From: Acidimicrobiales bacterium
Lineage (GTDB): Bacteria; Actinomycetota; Acidimicrobiia; Acidimicrobiales; MedAcidi-G1
NCBI GenBank assembly: GCA_016845305.1
Contig: JAERSW010000119.1
Location: 1-44,731 of the forward strand
Reading direction: 5' to 3'
DNA length: 44,731 nucleotides
The notes beneath the pieces were generated by a model. The model had not been told where the DNA came from. It ran no database searches and saw nothing but the letters and a program-made list of their open reading frames with translations. Of the stretch, positions 9,442 through 18,331 are shown one piece after another. How positions within the stretch are numbered: position 1 is the stretch's first letter; every line of letters begins with the position of its first letter. The translations under genes were made by a program, and so were the position numbers.

Positions 9442-11028
<1,587 letters not shown>

Positions 11029-11079
11029 GGAAGTCCCCTTTCGACCGGTGGGTTCCTGCTGGTACGTCTCGTGGCGGCC

Positions 11080-11085
11080 AGTATC
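11080..11085 (-). promoter_or_regulatory. Candidate -10 box of aceB-aceA (GATACT)
   Basis: GATACT on the minus strand, preceded by TG-like context, lies about 50 nt before the aceB ATG. Exactly 3 nt upstream of it is the arm GGCCGGAAGATC. The corresponding box on the other strand (TAGGCT) has the same relation to the other arm. Confidence 0.45.
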
Positions 11086-11088
11086 AGC

Positions 11089-11129
11089 GATCTTCCGGCC
11101 TCGACCGGGGACGGGGGCCGGAGAAGATC
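11089..11129. promoter_or_regulatory. Inverted repeat between divergent aceB and ramB-like promoters
   Basis: The left arm GATCTTCCGGCC (11089-11100) and the right arm GGCCGGAGAAGATC (11116-11129) are inverted copies, the right one with two extra bases. Each arm ends 3 nt upstream of the -10 box of the gene it points to. The position suggests a regulator site that controls both directions, possibly for the RamB-like protein itself. It does not match the corynebacterial RamB consensus as I recall it. Confidence 0.5.
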
Positions 11130-11132
11130 ACC

Positions 11133-11138
11133 TAGGCT
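11133..11138 (+). promoter_or_regulatory. Candidate -10 box of the ramB-like gene (TAGGCT)
   Basis: TAGGCT lies 59 nt before the ATG at 11198, so this gene, unlike many here, should have a 5' leader of about 50 nt. That leader starts with an inverted repeat (11147-11172). Confidence 0.5.
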
Positions 11139-11146
11139 GTGCTCGA

Positions 11147-11172
11147 GGCCGAAAAATCCAAGGACTTCGGCC
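11147..11172 (+). promoter_or_regulatory. Inverted repeat in the leader of the ramB-like gene
   Basis: GGCCGAA and TTCGGCC are perfect inverted copies with a 12-nt A-rich spacer, starting about 9 nt after the -10 box. It could be a repressor site for autoregulation or an RNA hairpin. The A-rich centre stands out in this GC-rich DNA. Confidence 0.45.
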
Positions 11173-11197
11173 AGTTGGACGGCGAAGGGGGAGCACG

Positions 11198-12664
11198 ATG
11201 GGTGGACCGGCCTTCGACCCGGTCGTCCTCGGCCACCGACTCCGCCACCTGCGCCGGGACGCGGGGCTCACCCTGGCGGTGCTCGGCGAGCGCATCGGCC
11301 GACCCGCCTCGTACCTGTCCCAGGTCGAGAACGGCCGGATCGAGCCCCGTCTCGGCGTGCTGGGCGAGCTGGCCGAGGCCCTGGGTTGCACCACCGCCGA
11401 CCTCCTCGACCCGACCCCGCCCAGCCGACGGGCCGAGCTGGAGATCGAGTTGGACCGCCACCAGCAGGGCCCGTGGCGGTCCACCCTGGAACTTCCCGAG
11501 GTGCGGGCCGGAGCCCGCCTCGACGACGACGTGCTCGAGGCGCTCGTCGGCCTCTACCGGGTGCTGCCCGACGTCGAGGTCAGCCGGTCGGGCCTCGCCA
11601 GCCTCGAGGCGGGCGACCGGGCCCGGATGGCCAACATCGGCCTGCGGTCGGAGATGCGGGAGCGCGACAACTACTTCGCCGAGGTGGAGGCCCTCGCCGC
11701 CGCCGACCTGGCCGCCGCTGGCTACGGCGGCGAGGGGCCACCCACGGAACGGGACATGGAGGGCCTCGCCGCCCACCACGGGTTCACCGTGGAGCGGGTC
11801 AAGGGCATGCCCCGCACCGCCCGGTCGGTGACCGACACCCGGCGGCGGGTCATCTACATCCCGCAGCGCGACGACCTCAGCGTGCGGGCCGCCCGGTCGG
11901 TGGTGCTCCAGACCCTGGGGCACTTCGCCCTCGAGCACGCCGAGACCACCGACTTCGAGGGCTACCTGCGCCAGCGGATCCAGTCGAACTACTACGCGGC
12001 GGCCGTCCTCATCCCCGAGGAGGCCGCCGTGGGCTTCCTCGGCGCGGCCAGGGAGGACGGCGACCTGTCCATCGAGGACCTCAAGGAGCGCTACTACGTC
12101 TCCTACGAGATGGCCGCCCACCGGTTCACCAACCTGGCCACCCGGCACCTCGGCCTTCCCGTGCACTTCATCCGCACCGACCCGGAGGGCACCGTCACCA
12201 AGGCCTACGAGAACGACGGCATCCGGTTCCCCGCCGACCCCGACGGTGGCCTGGAGGGCGCCCGCCTGGGTCGCAACTGGGGGGCCCGCCAAGCGTGGGA
12301 CGGATCCGACCTCCTCCACTACCAGCGGACGGTGATGGACGACGGCGACTACTGGTGCGTGACCTACATCGAGAACGCCACCGAGCGGACCCCGTACGCG
12401 GTGACCCTCGGCTGCAGGGTCGAGCACGCCGAGGCGTTCCGGGGCGGCGACACCCTTCGCCGCGTCGATGCCCGGGGTGGGGACGAGCAGGCGGACGAGG
12501 ACCTCCTGCAGCGTTGGGAGGGCGTGGCCTGGCCGTCGGCCTCGGAGCGGAGCTTCGTGCTGACCGCGCTGCCGTCGGCGGCGCGGGAGTTCACGCCGTT
12601 CCCCGGCATCGACCTGATGGACGTCTACCGGTTCCTCGAACGGCAGGGCGGCGGCCCGACCTGA
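11198..12664 (+). CDS. RamB-like XRE/ScfR family transcriptional regulator
   Basis: A 488-residue regulator with an N-terminal XRE helix-turn-helix (about residues 10-65, GLTLAVLGERIGRPASYLSQVENGRIEP), an ImmA/IrrE-like middle region (DUF955; about 170-330) and a C-terminal domain of the type found in short-chain fatty-acyl/RamB regulators (DUF2083). In Corynebacterium, RamB represses acetate and glyoxylate-shunt genes, and here the gene is divergent from aceB-aceA, which supports the same role. The zinc-protease-like motif of ImmA is degenerate (GHFALEH, lacking the HExxH glutamate), as expected for a ligand-sensing rather than protease role. ATG 11198 is preceded by GAAGGGGGAG. The frame extends upstream to 10595 over aceB, without meaning. 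I leave the gene symbol empty because orthology was not tested. Confidence 0.88.
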   Translation: MGGPAFDPVVLGHRLRHLRRDAGLTLAVLGERIGRPASYLSQVENGRIEPRLGVLGELAEALGCTTADLLDPTPPSRRAELEIELDRHQQGPWRSTLELPEVRAGARLDDDVLEALVGLYRVLPDVEVSRSGLASLEAGDRARMANIGLRSEMRERDNYFAEVEALAAADLAAAGYGGEGPPTERDMEGLAAHHGFTVERVKGMPRTARSVTDTRRRVIYIPQRDDLSVRAARSVVLQTLGHFALEHAETTDFEGYLRQRIQSNYYAAAVLIPEEAAVGFLGAAREDGDLSIEDLKERYYVSYEMAAHRFTNLATRHLGLPVHFIRTDPEGTVTKAYENDGIRFPADPDGGLEGARLGRNWGARQAWDGSDLLHYQRTVMDDGDYWCVTYIENATERTPYAVTLGCRVEHAEAFRGGDTLRRVDARGGDEQADEDLLQRWEGVAWPSASERSFVLTALPSAAREFTPFPGIDLMDVYRFLERQGGGPT

Positions 12665-12701: not shown

Positions 12702-13556
12702 TCACGCCTTGGTGAACGGTTCGCCGGCAGCGTGCCGGCGTCGGACCTCGGCGGCGTAGGACGACAGGTCGACGGTGCGCACGGCGGCCGGATCCCGGAC
12801 CGTTCCCGTGTGGGTGGCGAAGCGCTCGCCGTCCCACCGGTGGAGCTGGTAGGCGGGGGGTTCGTCGACCGCTCCGGCCCGGTCGGAGTCGAGGTCGAGC
12901 CCCAGCTGGTTCCCGGTCGACGGACAGGTGGTGGCCAGGGCCGCGCCGATCGCCGTCTGGATGGGACGGTGCAGGTGGCCGCACGTCAGGAGCCGGACCT
13001 GGGGGTGGCGTTCGATGGTGGCCCGGAGCCGGTCGGCGTCGAGCAGGCCGGCCAGGTCCATGAAACGCAGGCCGGTCTCGAACGGCGGGAAGTGGGTGAA
13101 GATCGCCGTGGGGCGGTCGGGCTCGGCGGCCAGCACGCCGTCCAGCCAGGCCTCTCGCTCGGTGTCGAAGCGTCCGTCGTGTCGGCCGGGCAGGGTCGTG
13201 TCGAGGCCGACGAGCCGGATCGGATGGTCGTCGACCACGTAGCTGCAGTGGCCGTCGGGCAGGTCGTCGGGCAGGAGGTCGGCGAAGGCCAGGCGGAAGG
13301 CCGGCTCCTCGTCGTGGTTGCCGGGCAGCGGGACCAGCCGGTCGTCCAGCGGGGCGAGGATGTCACGGAGGGTGGCGTACTGGGCCGGGGTGCCGTCGTC
13401 GGTGAGGTCGCCGGTGGCCAGCACCACGTCGGGCGCCGAATCCAGGCCCAGGAGGTGGTCGACGACCCGCCGGAGGGTCTCGGTGGTGTCGACCAGGCGG
13501 CCGAACGAGGTGTCCCGATCGCGGATGTGGCAGTCGGTGACCTGGGCGATCAGCAC
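12702..13556 (-). CDS. Metallophosphoesterase, class III cyclic-nucleotide phosphodiesterase type
   Basis: A 284-residue calcineurin-like phosphoesterase. All metal-site motifs are in order: Asp8-x-His10 (TDCHI), GD at 49-50, GNHD at 79-82, His in IFTHFPP near residue 154, and GHLH near 190. The layout matches CpdA/Rv0805-type enzymes that hydrolyse cAMP and other phosphodiesters in vitro; the physiological substrate is uncertain in the family. The GTG start at 13556 has a TAGGGT box 6 nt upstream, so the mRNA is probably leaderless. It is divergent from the phosphatase/ADP-ribosylglycohydrolase pair with a 55-nt gap and convergent with the RamB-like gene. cAMP turnover and acetate control would be a natural link, but this is speculation. 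Confidence 0.87.
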   Translation of the reverse strand: MLIAQVTDCHIRDRDTSFGRLVDTTETLRRVVDHLLGLDSAPDVVLATGDLTDDGTPAQYATLRDILAPLDDRLVPLPGNHDEEPAFRLAFADLLPDDLPDGHCSYVVDDHPIRLVGLDTTLPGRHDGRFDTEREAWLDGVLAAEPDRPTAIFTHFPPFETGLRFMDLAGLLDADRLRATIERHPQVRLLTCGHLHRPIQTAIGAALATTCPSTGNQLGLDLDSDRAGAVDEPPAYQLHRWDGERFATHTGTVRDPAAVRTVDLSSYAAEVRRRHAAGEPFTKA

Positions 13557-13562
13557 GACCCG

Positions 13563-13568
13563 ACCCTA
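13563..13568 (-). promoter_or_regulatory. -10 box of the phosphodiesterase gene (TAGGGT), leaderless
   Basis: TAGGGT on the minus strand ends 6 nt before GTG 13556, with no Shine-Dalgarno in between. Confidence 0.55.
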
Positions 13569-13611
13569 GGGGCCGGGCGCCGACAGGCGGAACCGTGGGA
13601 GGATTCACGAG

Positions 13612-14217
13612 ATGGCGGAGATGACGGGATTTCGGGACGGGTCGGGTGAGGCGTGGCCGCTGGCCCGCTTCGTTCCCGGTCCGACCCGACGGTCGTACTG
13701 GGTGGTGGAGGGACGGCTGGCGGCCGGCGCCTACCCGGGCAAGGCCGGCCGCGGCGACCGCGAGCACGTGCCGGAGGTGCTCCAGGAGCTGTTGGACGCC
13801 GGGATCGACACGTTCGTGAACCTGACCCAGGACGATCCGGACGTGTTTCCCTACGGGACCGACGTCCACCTGACCCGCTACCACGGAGCCGTGGACGGTC
13901 GAGCCGAGGTGCTGGCCTGTCCCATCCCGGACATGGGGGTGCCGGACGGGGGTCCCGTGGAGCTGGTCGGGATCCTCGACGTGCTGGACGAGGCGCTGGC
14001 CGCCGGCGGGACCGCCTACGTCCACTGCTGGGGTGGCCTGGGCCGGACCGGCACGGTGGTGGGCTGCTGGCTGGCCCGGCACGGGTATGCCTCGGGCCGC
14101 GACGTCCTGGAGGTCCTGACCGATCTGCGGCTGGGTGACCTGGACGCGGGCCACCGGGAGTCGCCACAGACCCGCGACCAGGAGCGGATGGTCGTGGAGT
14201 GGGAGGCCGGCCGGTGA
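13612..14217 (+). CDS. Cys-based dual-specificity-like phosphatase (first of two)
   Basis: A 201-residue protein with the CX5R signature HCWGGLGRTG: Cys139 would be the nucleophile and Arg145 the phosphate-binding residue. PIPDMGVPD upstream offers Asp107 as general acid, and the preceding VNLTQDD and CPIPDMG strands fit the dual-specificity/CDC14-like fold. Such domains remove phosphate from proteins, nucleotides or inositols; the target is unknown. ATG 13612 has GGGAGG about 9 nt upstream. The TGA stop overlaps the GTG start of the ADP-ribosylglycohydrolase (GTGA), so the two proteins are translationally coupled. Phosphatase domains fused to ADP-ribosylglycohydrolases are known in other bacteria (recalled, not searched), which supports a joint pathway. 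Confidence 0.88.
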   Translation: MAEMTGFRDGSGEAWPLARFVPGPTRRSYWVVEGRLAAGAYPGKAGRGDREHVPEVLQELLDAGIDTFVNLTQDDPDVFPYGTDVHLTRYHGAVDGRAEVLACPIPDMGVPDGGPVELVGILDVLDEALAAGGTAYVHCWGGLGRTGTVVGCWLARHGYASGRDVLEVLTDLRLGDLDAGHRESPQTRDQERMVVEWEAGR

Positions 14218-15212
14218 GCGGCCCGCTCGACGACGGCGTGGTGGACCGGGCGCTGGGGGCAGTGCTGGCCTCGGCGTGCGGCGACGCCCTCGGGGCCGGC
14301 TACGAGTTCGCCGACTCGACGCTCCCGGACGACCCGGCCGATCTGGACATGATCGGCGGCGGGCTTGGCGACTGGGCGCCGGGGGAGTGGACCGACGACA
14401 CCCAGATGGCGCTCGGCATCCTCGACGTGCTGGCGGACCGGGGCGGCGACGGTCCGGTGGACCACGTGGCCATCGGTCGGAACTTCCTGGACTGGGCGGC
14501 GACCGATCCGCCGGACATCGGGATGCACACCCGGGCGGTGCTGTGCGCCGGCGTCGACGCCGACGGGCTCCTCGACTGGTCCGACGAGGTCCAGGAGCGG
14601 AAGGGCGACAGCGTCGGGAACGGCGGCCTGATGCGGAGCGCACCGGTGCCGTTGGTGGCGCTCGGCGACCGCGACGCAGTGGCACGCGCCGCGGCCACCG
14701 TGTCGAGGCTGACCCACGCCCACGCCGACTCGCGCGACGCCTGCGTGCTGTGGTGCGAGGCGGCCCGCTCGGCCATCGTGGACGCCGAGGCGATGGACGG
14801 CTTCGACGCCGCGGACCTGGTGCGTGCCGGCCTCGATCTGGTCCCGGAGGACCGCCGGGACCTGTGGGCAGCTCGAATCGACGAGGCGGTGATGCTGCCA
14901 CCAGAGGCCTTCAACCCGAACGGATGGGTGGTGACCGCCTTCCAGGCGGTGCTGTCGGCCATCGTCCACACCCCGGTCGACCCCGACGATCCGTCGGGGC
15001 ACCTCGAGGCAGCGTTGCGTGCCGCGGTGATGGTCGGCAACGACACCGACACCGTGGCCGCCATCGCCGGGACGCTGCTGGGCGCCCGCTGGGGCGCGGC
15101 GGCCCTGCCGGGGGAGTGGCTGGAGCTGCTCCACGGCATCCGCCGGGCCGGGGAACCGGTGGTCCGGGCCGACGAGCTGGACGTGCTCGTTCGGTCCTCA
15201 CTCGGCCTCTGA
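14214..15212 (+). CDS. ADP-ribosylglycohydrolase family protein
   Basis: A 332-residue all-helical ADP-ribosylglycohydrolase (DraG/ARH family), which removes ADP-ribose from proteins or nucleic acids or splits related N- and O-glycosides. Both metal-binding motifs are intact: EWTDDTQM with Thr60-Asp61-Asp62 and GNDTDTVAAIAG with Asp277 and Asp279. SVGNGGLMRSAP, the family's middle motif, is also present. The GTG at 14214 overlaps the phosphatase stop by 4 nt and has GGAGG about 8 nt upstream; the frame would also allow 14199, but that start has no Shine-Dalgarno advantage. No ADP-ribosyltransferase is seen in the window, so the modification it reverses is unidentified. After its stop comes a 146-nt gap with regulatory-looking repeats. 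Confidence 0.92.
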   Translation: MSGPLDDGVVDRALGAVLASACGDALGAGYEFADSTLPDDPADLDMIGGGLGDWAPGEWTDDTQMALGILDVLADRGGDGPVDHVAIGRNFLDWAATDPPDIGMHTRAVLCAGVDADGLLDWSDEVQERKGDSVGNGGLMRSAPVPLVALGDRDAVARAAATVSRLTHAHADSRDACVLWCEAARSAIVDAEAMDGFDAADLVRAGLDLVPEDRRDLWAARIDEAVMLPPEAFNPNGWVVTAFQAVLSAIVHTPVDPDDPSGHLEAALRAAVMVGNDTDTVAAIAGTLLGARWGAAALPGEWLELLHGIRRAGEPVVRADELDVLVRSSLGL

Positions 15213-15273
15213 TCCCCGTCGTTCCAACGATCTCGAGCCGTTCGTCGGGAGGCTGTCACACCCCCTCTCTATC

Positions 15274-15318
15274 TTGTCATTCAATCACGAAATGGTGATC
15301 TCGAAATGACAATCACGA
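15274..15318. promoter_or_regulatory. Nested palindromes and direct repeats upstream of phosphatase 2
   Basis: TTGTCATT (15274-15281) and AATGACAA (15305-15312) are a perfect inverted pair 23 nt apart. Inside and beside them AATCACGA occurs twice in the same direction (15283-15290, 15311-15318), CGAAATG occurs twice, and ATCAC/GTGAT form an inner palindrome. The stretch is AT-rich for this genome. A TATCTT box (15270-15275) could serve as -10. The layout looks like an operator array for a dimeric regulator. Confidence 0.55.
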
Positions 15319-15320
15319 GA

Positions 15321-15346
15321 GGGCGGACGCACCGAATCGTCCGCCC
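15321..15346 (+). promoter_or_regulatory. Leader hairpin abutting the ribosome binding site of phosphatase 2
   Basis: GGGCGGAC and GTCCGCCC pair perfectly across a 10-nt loop. The stem ends 2 nt before the Shine-Dalgarno GGAGG (15349-15353) of the gene at 15359. Such a stem could limit ribosome access or protect the mRNA 5' end. A nearly identical element (20 of 26 positions) lies in the mreB leader at 28288-28313. Confidence 0.5.
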
Positions 15347-15358
15347 ACGGAGGACCCG

Positions 15359-16372
15359 ATGAACGACCTGACCCCACCCACCACCGCCCACCGTCCCGAC
15401 GACCCCGCCGCCTGGTGGCGGCGACCGTGCGAGGTGGCCGACCGCCTGTACGTGAGCGGCGACCTGCCCACCGACCCGATCGGCTCCCAGCGGGGCCTCG
15501 CCATCTGGCTCGAGGTCGGCATCACCCACGTGGTCGACCTCCGTGGCGAGTGGAACAGCGATGACGTCGTCGCCGCGGCGGCACCGCACGTCGTGTACCA
15601 CCACCTCGGCACCCATGACGACGGCGCCGCCCACGGCCAGGCGAAGGGCTGGTTCACCGAGGGCGTCGACGCCATCACCGAGGCGTTGGCCGATCCCGAT
15701 GCCCGGGTCATGGTGCATTGCCACATGGGCGTGAACCGGGCCCCGTCGATGGCCTACGCCGTGCTGCTCGAGCTGGGCCACGGCATCGAGGAGGGCCTCG
15801 AGGCCATCCGCGCCGCCCGCCCCATCGCCGGCATCGAGTACGCCGGCGACGCCATCCGGTGGCACGCCGACCGCCGGTCGTGGACGATCGACGAGGAGCG
15901 CGACGCGGTCCGCCGGGCCAACGCCTGGCGGTTGGCCAACCCGGTCGACCTCGGCTGGATCATCAGCAAGATCCGGACGGCCGAGGACGTCGTCGACCAC
16001 CTGGACGAGGGCGTCCTGCCGTCCGGCGACGTCGACTGGGACGCCGAGATGGCCGACCTGCCGGCCGGCGAGATCCTCGCCGAGGTCGCCCAGGACCGTG
16101 CCGTGGAGGCCGTCCGCCAGTGGGCCGACCTGCGGATCGCCGACATGGACGGCTTCGAGAGCCTGCCCGAGGAGATCCGGCCCGATCCGGACACCCGGAT
16201 CGGTGACCTCGTGGTCCCCGGGATCGTCGACGGCCTGTGCCGGCTCCTCGGCGTGTCCCCGGAGGACCTGGACCGGGCCGTGGTCGAGGGGCTCCACGAG
16301 CAGGTCGAGGGGTGCCTGGTGCAGGGCGTCCACATCGGCTTCGCCGCCATGGCCTCCGAGGAGGAGGTGTGA
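15359..16372 (+). CDS. Cys-based dual-specificity-like phosphatase (second) with unknown C-terminal domain
   Basis: A 337-residue protein. Residues 20-165 form a dual-specificity phosphatase-like domain with the strand ITHVVDLRGEWN and the CX5R loop HCHMGVNRAPS; Cys121 and Arg127 are the catalytic residues, and Asp87/Asp88 in THDDG could supply the acid. The remaining 170 residues are acidic and helical in appearance and match no family I recognise; they contain WIISKIRTAEDVVDHLDEG and a terminal GLHEQVEGCLVQGVHIGF. ATG 15359 has GGAGG 5 nt upstream. The stop TGA overlaps the ATG of the deacetylase-like gene, so the two are coupled. It shares only the catalytic loop pattern with the first phosphatase and is not a recent duplicate. 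Confidence 0.85.
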   Translation: MNDLTPPTTAHRPDDPAAWWRRPCEVADRLYVSGDLPTDPIGSQRGLAIWLEVGITHVVDLRGEWNSDDVVAAAAPHVVYHHLGTHDDGAAHGQAKGWFTEGVDAITEALADPDARVMVHCHMGVNRAPSMAYAVLLELGHGIEEGLEAIRAARPIAGIEYAGDAIRWHADRRSWTIDEERDAVRRANAWRLANPVDLGWIISKIRTAEDVVDHLDEGVLPSGDVDWDAEMADLPAGEILAEVAQDRAVEAVRQWADLRIADMDGFESLPEEIRPDPDTRIGDLVVPGIVDGLCRLLGVSPEDLDRAVVEGLHEQVEGCLVQGVHIGFAAMASEEEV

Positions 16373-17328
16373 TGCGGGTCTTCCACGACGACGGCTACGT
16401 CGCCACCGACCACGACTTCGACACCACCCGGAAGTCGTCCTGGATCGCCGAGGCGATCCGGGGCGGCCGGGTTCCCGGTGTCGAGGTCGTCCCGCCGACC
16501 TCCCACCTGTCGGTGGCCGAGGCGGCCATCGGCGCGGTGCACGACGGGGCCTACGTCGAGGCGTTGCGCACCGGCGAGCCCGCCGAGCTGGCCGAGGGCA
16601 ACGACTTCCCGTGGGACCCGGGCATCTGGACGATGGCGGTCCATTCCACCGCCGGCGTCCTGGCCGCCGTGGACGAGGCGATCGCGTCCGGCGGCGCCAG
16701 CGGAAGCCTGTCGTCCGGCCTCCACCACGCACGGCGTGCGGGTGGGTCCGGCTACTGCACGGTCAACGGCTTGGCCGTCGCCGTGCACCACGTCCTGGAC
16801 GGTGCCGCCTCGGACGGCGCGGGCGCAGCGGTGGAGCGGGTCGTCATCCTCGACGTCGACGCCCACTGCGGCGGCGGCACCGACGAGCTGGTCGGAACCG
16901 ACCCTCGGGTGCTGCACCTCGACCTGAGCACCAGCGGCTTCGACGGCTACGAGCCGTCCGGCGCGGGCATGCTGGAGATCGTCTCGTCCGATGACGACGC
17001 CTACCTCGCCGGGCTGGACCGGATGCTGGACCGCCTCCCGGACGACGCCGGCCTGGTGCTGGTCAACGCGGGCATGGACCCCCACCCGGGGGTGTCGTTC
17101 GAGGCCCTGGCCGAGCGGGAGCGCCGGATCGCCGAGCGGTGCCGCGGGCGAGCCACGGCGTTCGTGCTCGCCGGGGGCTACACGTGGTCGATGACCGAGG
17201 AGCGGCTCGTCGACCTCCACCTCCTCACGGTGGCGGCCATGGCCGGGCTCGACCCGGATCCGTCACCGGGCGGCGATTCGTCACAGGCCAGTCGGACAGG
17301 GGACCAGGTCGGGTGCTTCGTGGGTTGA
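16372..17328 (+). CDS. Histone-deacetylase-fold hydrolase
   Basis: A 318-residue member of the histone deacetylase/AcuC/acetylpolyamine amidohydrolase superfamily, zinc enzymes that remove acyl groups from lysines or polyamines. The paired histidines are His118-His119 in SSGLHHARR, the zinc ligands Asp163 and His165 in DVDAHCGGGT and Asp235 in NAGMDPH, and the transition-state tyrosine Tyr270 in LAGGYT. GYCTVNGLAVAVHH is the usual following helix. The signature DAHCGGG differs from the more usual DVHHGNG, so it is probably a divergent subfamily. It starts at ATG 16372 inside the stop of phosphatase 2, with GGAGGAGGTG just upstream. Substrate unknown: acetyl-lysine, acylated polyamine or acylated small molecule are all possible. 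Confidence 0.88.
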   Translation: MRVFHDDGYVATDHDFDTTRKSSWIAEAIRGGRVPGVEVVPPTSHLSVAEAAIGAVHDGAYVEALRTGEPAELAEGNDFPWDPGIWTMAVHSTAGVLAAVDEAIASGGASGSLSSGLHHARRAGGSGYCTVNGLAVAVHHVLDGAASDGAGAAVERVVILDVDAHCGGGTDELVGTDPRVLHLDLSTSGFDGYEPSGAGMLEIVSSDDDAYLAGLDRMLDRLPDDAGLVLVNAGMDPHPGVSFEALAERERRIAERCRGRATAFVLAGGYTWSMTEERLVDLHLLTVAAMAGLDPDPSPGGDSSQASRTGDQVGCFVG

Positions 17329-17350
17329 CGATCCGGACAGCGACCCGCCC

Positions 17351-17404
17351 GAGACAGGCAGAGAGATCGAGACAGGCAGAGAGATCGAGATAGGCAGAGA
17401 GAAG
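17351..17404 (+). repeat. Three 18-bp purine-rich tandem repeats
   Basis: Units at 17351-17368 and 17369-17386 are identical (GAGACAGGCAGAGAGATC); the third at 17387-17404 differs at three positions. They fill most of the 88-nt gap before the gene at 17417 and are almost free of pyrimidines on the plus strand. Too short and spacer-free for CRISPR. They end 12 nt before the ATG and may act as an untranslated purine-rich leader or protein-binding site. Confidence 0.9.
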
Positions 17405-17416
17405 AGAGAACAGAAG

Positions 17417-18331
17417 ATGAACCTCCCCCCGAGCGGATCGACCGGCGTCGACAGCGACCGGTTCACCGCCTACCAGATGGGTGCCGACATCGCCCGCAGC
17501 CGGATGGCCATCGAGCAGCCGCTCCAGGCCGAGGCCCTGGAGGCGGTCCAGGCCGCCGACATCGTGGTGGTCGAGGGCTGCTACGACCACGTCGAGCAGG
17601 TCCTGGGCGCCCTGGACGTCCCGTTCACGGTGGTCCCGGAGGGCCACCTCGCGACGGCCGGCCTGAACCCCGACCAGCTCCTGGTCGTGAACTGCCCGGG
17701 CAACATGACCGAAGCCGAGATCGTGGCCGTCCGTGACTTCGTGGCCGCCGGCGGCACCCTCTTCACCACCGACTGGGCGCTGACCAACGTGATCGAGCGG
17801 GCCTTTCCGGGCCACGTCGCCTACAACGGCCGGTCCACCGGCGACGACGTGGTGCGGATCGACGTGTTGGAGACCGACAGCCCGTACCTCCAGGGCGTGC
17901 TCGACGCCGACGACGACCCGCAGTGGTGGCTGGAGGGCTCCTCCTACCCCGTCCGGGTCCTCGACGACGAGCGTGTCCGGGTGCTCATCCGGTCGGCCGA
18001 GCTGGGCGAGAAGTACGGCGAGGACGCGGTGGCCGTGGTGTTCGCGTACGGGAAGGGCGAGGTCTTCCACATGATCTCGCACTACTACCTGCAGCGCACC
18101 GAGCTCCGGACCGAGCGGCACCAGCGCTCGGCGGCCTCCTACGCCGCCGAGAAGGGCGGTTCCATCCGGGAGAGCCTGTGGCAGGAGGCGAACCTCAGCA
18201 GCCTGGGCGACGTCGAGTCGGCGGCCACCTCGGCCCGCATGATGGCCAACATCGTGGCCGACAAGAAGTCCCGGAGGATGGCCGAGAGGATGGCCGACCC
18301 GGACGAGCAGTGGGAGCCCATCGACTGGTGA
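17417..18331 (+). CDS. Uncharacterised class I glutamine-amidotransferase-like protein
   Basis: A 304-residue protein I cannot assign to a characterised family. The first 160 residues alternate strands and helices like the flavodoxin-like fold of class I glutamine amidotransferases, ThuA and DJ-1 proteins: ADIVVVEGCYDHVEQVL, then LLVVNCPGNMTEAEIVAVRDFVAAGGTLFTTDW. Cys93 in VNCPGN is where the nucleophile elbow would be, although glutamine amidotransferases normally have GxCxG. A later strand GKGEVFHMISHYYLQRTE carries two histidines. The C-terminal 70 residues are helical and charged. The ribosome binding region is a purine-rich AGAGAGAACAGAAG. It follows the deacetylase-like gene by 88 nt, with the tandem repeat in between, and converges on tRNA-Gly. 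Function unknown; its place with two phosphatases and a deacetylase suggests a linked role. Confidence 0.72.
   Translation: MNLPPSGSTGVDSDRFTAYQMGADIARSRMAIEQPLQAEALEAVQAADIVVVEGCYDHVEQVLGALDVPFTVVPEGHLATAGLNPDQLLVVNCPGNMTEAEIVAVRDFVAAGGTLFTTDWALTNVIERAFPGHVAYNGRSTGDDVVRIDVLETDSPYLQGVLDADDDPQWWLEGSSYPVRVLDDERVRVLIRSAELGEKYGEDAVAVVFAYGKGEVFHMISHYYLQRTELRTERHQRSAASYAAEKGGSIRESLWQEANLSSLGDVESAATSARMMANIVADKKSRRMAERMADPDEQWEPIDW

Follow-up and report, generated by a model that had tools for sequence, protein, structure and literature searches.

A writer-less cluster of ADP-ribosylglycohydrolase, Cys-phosphatase and histone-deacetylase-fold genes in an acidimicrobial genome probably extends the predicted ARG-centred systems for ADP-ribose removal

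The window, by which we mean the whole 44,731-nucleotide stretch analysed here (contig JAERSW010000119.1 of an Acidimicrobiales draft genome of 2.92 Mb, 98% complete), carries at positions 12702 to 18331 six genes that an earlier note had described as a string of group-removing enzymes with no matching writers. An open reading frame (ORF) and Pfam check confirmed all six, with the families the note had given them. A metallophosphoesterase gene on the minus strand (12702-13556; PF00149, E 1.3e-16) is followed on the plus strand by genes for a Cys-phosphatase of the rhodanese-phosphatase superfamily, PTP-SAK/Tc-R-P type (DSP1, 13612-14217; PF22784, E 1.5e-13, with PF22784/PF22785 above cut-off), an ADP-ribosylglycohydrolase (ARG, 14214-15212; PF03747, E 8.6e-54), a second Cys-phosphatase (DSP2, 15359-16372; PF00782, E 1.5e-6, under the family cut-off), a histone-deacetylase-fold hydrolase (HDAC, 16372-17328; PF00850, E 7.8e-26, 91.5 bits against a cut-off of 27.9) and a protein predicted to have the class I glutamine amidotransferase fold, DUF4350/ThuA-like (GAT, 17417-18331; PF14258/DUF4350, E 1.1e-5, under cut-off). 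The coupled starts reported previously are present: DSP1 and ARG overlap by GTGA (14214-14217), with the GTG start of ARG inside the DSP1 stop, and DSP2 and HDAC by TGATG (16370-16374), with the HDAC start inside the DSP2 stop. The 146 bp between ARG and DSP2 contain a promoter-like element, TGTCACACCCCCTCTCTATCTT (15254-15275, plus strand), of the form TGTCACACCC-N6-TAnnnT. The single string is in this respect two units, a coupled DSP1-ARG pair and a DSP2-HDAC-GAT unit with its own promoter. HDAC and GAT are 88 bp apart, and a tRNA-Gly gene lies 3' of GAT on the opposite strand. Three 18-nt tandem repeats (CGAGACAGGCAGAGAGAT; last copy 89%) occupy 17350-17403 in the HDAC-GAT gap.

The active-site motifs of the first five proteins are intact, as the note had held. 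By eye, both phosphatases have HCx5R (HCWGGLGR in DSP1, HCHMGVNR in DSP2), ARG has GDALG, TDDT and GNDTDT, HDAC has LHHA, DVDAH, AGMD and GGY, and the metallophosphoesterase has DCH, GNHD and GHLH; the catalytic meanings of these motifs are those that we take to hold for the families. In alignments, the catalytic columns of DSP2 are invariant in 11 homologues, and H118, H119, D163, H165, D236 and Y270 of HDAC are invariant in 9. The solved relatives of ARG include DraG-type and ARH3 chains, those nearest to HDAC are named histone deacetylase and HDAC6, and the DSP2 profile matches dual-specificity phosphatase structures. The structure model of DSP2 is confident only for about residues 20-210, with low confidence in a C-terminal extension that, among the homologues read, is common only to loci L032, L034 and L035 (L and G numbers are our handles for loci and genomes). 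The claim that writers are missing held for the 27 window proteins scanned, none of which matched protein kinase, ADP-ribosyltransferase, sirtuin or acetyltransferase families, the remaining window ORFs and the rest of the genome being outside the scan.

A set of erasers without writers has a published counterpart: Iyer et al. (2022, Viruses 14:1977; PMC9503650, section 3.8) predicted ARG-centred systems that DSP1-ARG matches and that have this as their design principle. Those authors sought ADP-ribose removers without a coupled transferase. The partners of ARG that emerged were rhodanese-phosphatases, calcineurin-like phosphatases, chaperones, nucleases, helicases and ARPP, the predicted role being reversal of viral ADP-ribosylation. 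The coupled phosphatase was mostly a rhodanese-phosphatase (a little over 55% of cases), and a regulator of one of the two reported types, Nudix or WYL, was optional (42% of cases). The window agrees with this description in its ARG with an overlapping rhodanese-phosphatase, in the lack of a linked ADP-ribosyltransferase or sirtuin among the scanned proteins, and in the variable partners of its relatives (ARPP, nuclease-like and helicase genes, and TY-Chap and Macro, which are partners named in PMC9503650). The optional ARPP is also present in the genome, but on another contig outside the window (PF20208 at G000:C27:26028-26888, E 9.8e-63). In contrast to the published systems, the window adds DSP2, HDAC and GAT, and it shares with its relatives an upstream element absent from the description in section 3.8; the main text of PMC9503650 does not name HDAC, DUF4350, ThuA or amidotransferase. 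A literature search, with most subscription papers outside it, found no title or abstract opening reporting an HDAC gene in ARG-centred systems, and the accessible part of PMC4431377 ties ARG to peptide-ligase genes rather than to the DSP/HDAC/GAT set. Thus, DSP2 and the HDAC described below as members, GAT as a looser partner and the shared element go beyond that main text.

Are these genes together by chance? In a survey of 118 genomes of the order, DSP1 matches were found in 27 and ARG matches in 32, and 12 genomes, belonging to 8 families, had them fused or close together on a single contig (as read from the survey); we conclude that DSP1-ARG is a recurrent pair and the core of ARG-centred systems (PMC9503650). 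All 8 strong DSP2 carriers in this survey had ARG, compared with 32 of the 118 genomes. We then drew 296 genomes evenly from the class and scored DSP2 at E 1e-20, HDAC at E 1e-40 and ARG at E 1e-10, using for DSP2, HDAC and GAT the best 7-8 first-look candidates per genome. DSP2 was present in 26 genomes spread over 10 families, HDAC in 13 and ARG in 99. With genomes taken as independent in Fisher tests, DSP2 occurred in 11 of the 13 HDAC carriers (p 2e-11, against 26/296 overall), and ARG in 21 of the 26 DSP2 carriers (p 3e-7, against 99/296) and in 11/13 HDAC carriers (p 2e-4). ARPP was found in 12 of the 26 DSP2 carriers, compared with 4 of 54 hand-picked DSP2-negative genomes.

The genes were also close to one another: 8 genomes have HDAC and DSP2 no more than 6 kb apart on a single contig, and the same holds for DSP2-ARG in 7, DSP2-ARPP in 6 and HDAC-ARG in 4. 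ARG, ARPP, DSP2 and HDAC follow in this map order on one contig each in G299, of the window's family, and in G140, of another family, where HDAC is divergent. G299 has three HDAC copies, each sharing a contig with ARG, and in G090 a metallo-beta-lactamase-fold gene stands directly between HDAC and an ARG-DSP fusion. Locus homologues have defence-like surroundings, with UvrD-type helicase genes alongside in L023, L034 and L035 (truncated at contig ends; a NERD domain appears in L035), joined by a weak PD-(D/E)XK match under cut-off in L023 and by a mad2-like methylase in L034; UvrD-type helicase, PD-(D/E)XK and mad2-like methylase were absent from the scanned window proteins. In G111, an NrtR-type Nudix regulator adjoins ARPP. 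The neighbourhood survey that the earlier note had proposed for the five plus-strand genes gave a divided result, in that all five lie on one contig in L034, rearranged and at 30-69% identity, whereas L033 was the sole locus seen with the identical order, partial forms of which appear in L032, L035 and L023. Since draft assemblies break contigs, absence of linkage is weak evidence. A chance grouping of small housekeeping hydrolases, which the note had offered as the simpler alternative, could draw on that single case of identical order and on a metallophosphoesterase not conserved elsewhere, but it is contradicted by the co-occurrence counts, by the gene neighbourhoods seen in other families and by the common upstream element, which make it very improbable. 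The grouping itself therefore stands, with subsets recurring in several families. The best named GAT matches are Acidimicrobiaceae and Acidimicrobiales metagenome bins, one of them labelled Euryarchaeota; the L034 contig, from a Euryarchaeota-labelled bin, has an actinobacterial-type gene set, with a GAT 69% identical to that of the window, and is probably misbinned.

The HDAC-fold enzymes of these loci form a recognizable subfamily. They share with bacterial HDAC-like enzymes the PF00850 match, the Asp/His/Asp zinc ligands, the His pair and the Tyr, whereas the usual HHGNGT is replaced by HCGGGT (DAHCGGGT where others have DxHHGNGT) with the catalytic residues kept, and in many carriers they are linked to system genes. 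Among 18 distinct system copies, 15 have HC, 2 HG and 1 HF, the last three (L195, L199, L204) being matches that cross a stop codon. In comparison, 26 loci with ordinary HDACs were examined; the pattern was located in 20 of these enzymes and read HHGNGT in every one, so that the DAHCGGGT signature separates the system HDACs from the ordinary ones read.

For GAT, the description as amidotransferase-like holds at the level of the predicted fold. Its AlphaFold2 model (predicted local distance difference test score, pLDDT, 88.5) gives VIA Z 13-14 to aminodeoxychorismate synthase, GMP synthetase and ThuA-like chains, at a root-mean-square deviation of ~3 Å over 170-200 residues. The amidotransferases share their rank with GH42 galactosidases (VIA Z up to 15.1), query-normalised Foldseek TM-scores are low (0.34-0.42 among the 50 matches listed), and the GAT profile had no sequence match in the PDB at E up to 1. 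Class I glutamine amidotransferases are defined by a GxCxG nucleophile motif. This motif is absent from the GAT alignment, where the only Cys among invariant columns is C93 in NCPG, and we rejected GAT as a true glutamine amidotransferase because the fold fits but the motif is missing. GAT instead has strictly conserved blocks of its own, including TTDW and FHMISHYYLQR, kept from Acidimicrobiia to Asgard archaea at 44% identity. It adjoins ARPP in L030, a relative in the order, and in the Thermoleophilia bins L037, L038 and L040 (Pfam was run on L030 and L037; L044 was left out as a duplicate of L030), and 3 of 5 GAT carriers in the class survey have DSP2 (p 0.005).

The metallophosphoesterase, which had been counted as part of the set, was rejected as a core member. 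Among the relatives, tblastn matched it only in L033, a locus that remains syntenic with the window far beyond the cluster, and for this reason it is probably a bystander. It resembles SpdA/CpdA-like phosphodiesterases under the NCBIfam cut-offs and is divergent from DSP1. PADLOC gave it a weak PDC-S10 match and gave the five plus-strand proteins none.

The upstream element, TGTCACACCC-N6-TAnnnT, was first noticed 5' of DSP2 in several loci when upstream regions were read side by side. A scan for TGTCACAC-N8-TAnnnT over 149 loci (1,033,861 bases), mostly chosen for carrying system genes and cleared of duplicates by a mid-sequence check that may leave some overlap, returned 16 sites, all reading TGTCACACCC and standing in differing sequence contexts; the first-order Markov expectation was 0.05 sites (maximum 1 in 20 simulations). 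Fourteen of the 16 fall in the 600-bp zones upstream of system genes, which make up 4.8% of the strand-specific sequence. The element precedes DSP2 ten times (in the window, L025, L032, L033, L034, L216, L217, L167, L169 and L171, the L167 site being 573 bp from the gene), an ARG-DSP fusion twice (L153, L055), ARPP once (L153) and GAT once (L219 in G299, on a contig separate from its DSP2). One site in G188 lies 5' of two TY-Chap3 genes; because the longest ORF called for the TY-Chap3 gene includes this site, ahead of the part matching the domain, the true start must lie further in. One site in G351 precedes an operon with sigma-like proteins and a MerR-Macro protein, on a contig that also has HDAC, ARPP and ARG. 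The sites are not all independent, given the relatedness of the window, L032 and L033 and the paralogy of L216 to L217. Only spacing 8 gave sites (16, against 0 at each of spacings 6, 7, 9 and 10), and the octamer TGTCACAC occurs 38 times in the loci, 21 of them within 600 bp upstream of a system gene, compared with a mean of 1.3 such matches (maximum 7) for 60 permuted octamers. An ATG stands 6-7 nt 3' of TAnnnT at 6 of the 16 sites, against ~2% by chance; by eye, four of these are start codons of DSP2 or ARPP, and the other two open a short leader ORF in G299. This position is that of a leaderless start, which supports TAnnnT as a working -10. A control scan of 554,931 bases, taken from four carrier genomes as 39 stretches that were mostly the starts of contigs picked by number, found one site (L295, 18466-18494, G299:C18), with an ATG 6 nt after TAAGTT.

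Because the genes are often together or behind the same unusual promoter in relatives, the locus points to a shared damage- or phage-response system rather than to chance. Our best explanation, which we consider moderately probable, is that it represents an extended, ARG-centred, writer-less system for ADP-ribose removal within a small, probably stress-induced regulon. That DSP1, ARG, DSP2 and HDAC work in one ADP-ribose-related process is very likely, and co-induction of the genes behind the element is likely. Reversal of foreign ADP-ribosylation as the purpose is possible, if somewhat doubtful.

Several observations weigh against this explanation. ARG is missing at E 1e-10 from 5 of the 26 DSP2 carriers and 2 of the 13 HDAC carriers, and the scanned window proteins include no Nudix or WYL regulator, chaperone or nuclease, so that the adjacent regulator or chaperone of the published systems has no equivalent among them. 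The ARG proteins of L023 and L034 are only ~30% identical to that of the window, compared with 51-54% for DSP1 and DSP2 of the same loci, as if ARG had been exchanged there. GAT is rare (5 of 296 class genomes), is found in only 3 of 26 DSP2 carriers and shows no significant association with ARG (3/5 carriers, p 0.21); no other window gene was found nearby in its Chloroflexi and Asgard loci L042, L043 and L045, ARPP not being among the queries. GAT is thus an optional, looser partner with a wider life. The element is likewise not general in these systems, since 16 of 19 further loci around system genes lack it and the other 3 have sites already counted; neither DSP1-ARG of the window nor the ARPP of its genome has a copy. 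Of two unexpected sites, one, that of the control, does not fit the theme: the leaderless gene behind it has a PF00156 phosphoribosyltransferase domain, which we take to resemble ComF, and is possibly a further member of the regulon. On these counts, the element is rare and strongly enriched at system genes, and its association with them is partial and not exclusive.

The layout of the element is that of the mycobacterial damage promoter, given in the accessible text of PMC5656591 as tTGTCRgtg-8nt-TannnT. The activator PafBC, a WYL protein, is described in the available portion of PMC11804915 as inducing the damage regulon by sigma adaptation after binding single-stranded DNA, and another WYL activator, SiwR, also depends on the -26 region (PMC10693628, in part). 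The TGTC-purine block and the equal spacing to TAnnnT are common to the P1/PafBC promoter and to our element, and together with the sigma-adaptation mechanism they lend weight to a regulon that is mainly a DNA-damage (or DNA-uptake) response, whose enzymes would repair ADP-ribosylated or blocked DNA or RNA ends rather than reverse viral protein ADP-ribosylation. The phosphoribosyltransferase-domain gene behind the control site, and the UvrD-type helicase or nuclease-like genes that flank the system in L023, L034 and L035, would also fit such a response. However, the element has CAC in place of gtg after TGTC-purine (all 16 sites being TGTCACACCC), then an invariant CC, and it precedes ADP-ribose genes rather than recA and repair genes, no recA or uvr gene having been identified behind its sites. 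The canonical TGTC[AG]GTG-8-TAnnnT had 0 sites in the 1.03 Mb of loci and 0 in the controls. For want of gtg after TGTCR, we do not class the element as a PafBC promoter proper, although it is laid out alike, and we regard a mainly DNA-damage regulon as fairly unlikely. The string TGTCACAC, sought only alongside other terms, was not met in the literature found.

A different use of the same chemistry would be salvage of NAD or ADP-ribose metabolites, in which soluble derivatives such as O-acetyl-ADP-ribose or ADP-ribose-1''-phosphate are constitutively dephosphorylated and deacylated. The accessible text of PMC9503650 allows for ARG and phosphatase families acting on small derivatives of ADP-ribose, and an NAD synthase gene adjoins GAT in L042; the gene 3' of GAT in the sister locus L045, however, is not an NAD synthase. 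The patchy presence of DSP2 (26/296) and HDAC (13/296) is unlike a housekeeping pathway, and the element resembles a regulated promoter. Salvage is thus quite unlikely to be the main role.

If the locus is instead an ADP-ribose-removal system within a stress-induced regulon, its working, from signal and regulator to inducibility, substrates and order of steps, may be as we infer it here. A signal (phage attack, an ADP-ribosylating toxin or DNA damage) would activate a regulator, with which RNA polymerase would start at TGTCACACCC-N6-TAnnnT promoters. ARG would hydrolyse ADP-ribose from macromolecules or small conjugates, DSP1 and DSP2 would remove phosphate from the released or attached ribosyl moiety, and the HDAC-fold enzyme would take an acyl group off the same conjugates or off a modified protein. 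GAT, with the ARPP encoded elsewhere in the genome, may handle the sugar part. In its most specific and more doubtful form, which we offer tentatively, this would be a dedicated acidimicrobial ADP-ribose-stress regulon with a PafBC-like, sigma-adapted promoter and multi-step erasers (ARG, two Cys-phosphatases, a specialised HDAC-fold deacylase, GAT as a sugar enzyme, and ARPP), the HDAC acting on acylated ADP-ribose or on acylated phage or toxin targets.

If true, an HDAC-fold enzyme would have been recruited to ADP-ribose chemistry. To the published ARG-centred systems, which are so far predicted and whose signal and parts are still to be filled in, the present analysis contributes two further enzyme families, together with an upstream element that connects even unlinked members and can be used to find more of them. 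Transcriptomics in a cultured acidimicrobial relative could now put the prediction to the test.

Some minor features were seen around the element. An imperfect inverted repeat (15263-15281/15305-15323) covers the -10 of the DSP2 promoter; as a conserved operator it was rejected, no such repeat being seen by eye upstream in L032, L033, L034 or G299. Within the same region (window 15263-15358), a short upstream ORF overlaps, by eye, the DSP2 start codon. As read by eye, a leaderless short leader ORF (MTTTEEKPKVLAHGLS / MTKIEEKPKVLAHGLS) follows the element in L216, from 4883, and in the matching L217, both of G299; between it and DSP2 lies a GC-rich inverted repeat, nearly identical in the two, that may be an attenuator. 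In L026 and L232 (G072 and G362), the gap between divergent HDAC and DSP2 genes shows, by eye, ATGTGAC...GTCACAT inverted repeats that are related to the TGTCACA core and are perhaps the dimeric form of an operator in that family. Upstream of the cluster, the window encodes at 10595-12664 an HTH/IrrE-type regulator that is weakly RamB-like (63 bits against a cut-off of 700) and adjoins genes that, by eye, resemble those for malate synthase and isocitrate lyase, so that the cluster borders on an ordinary glyoxylate-shunt locus.

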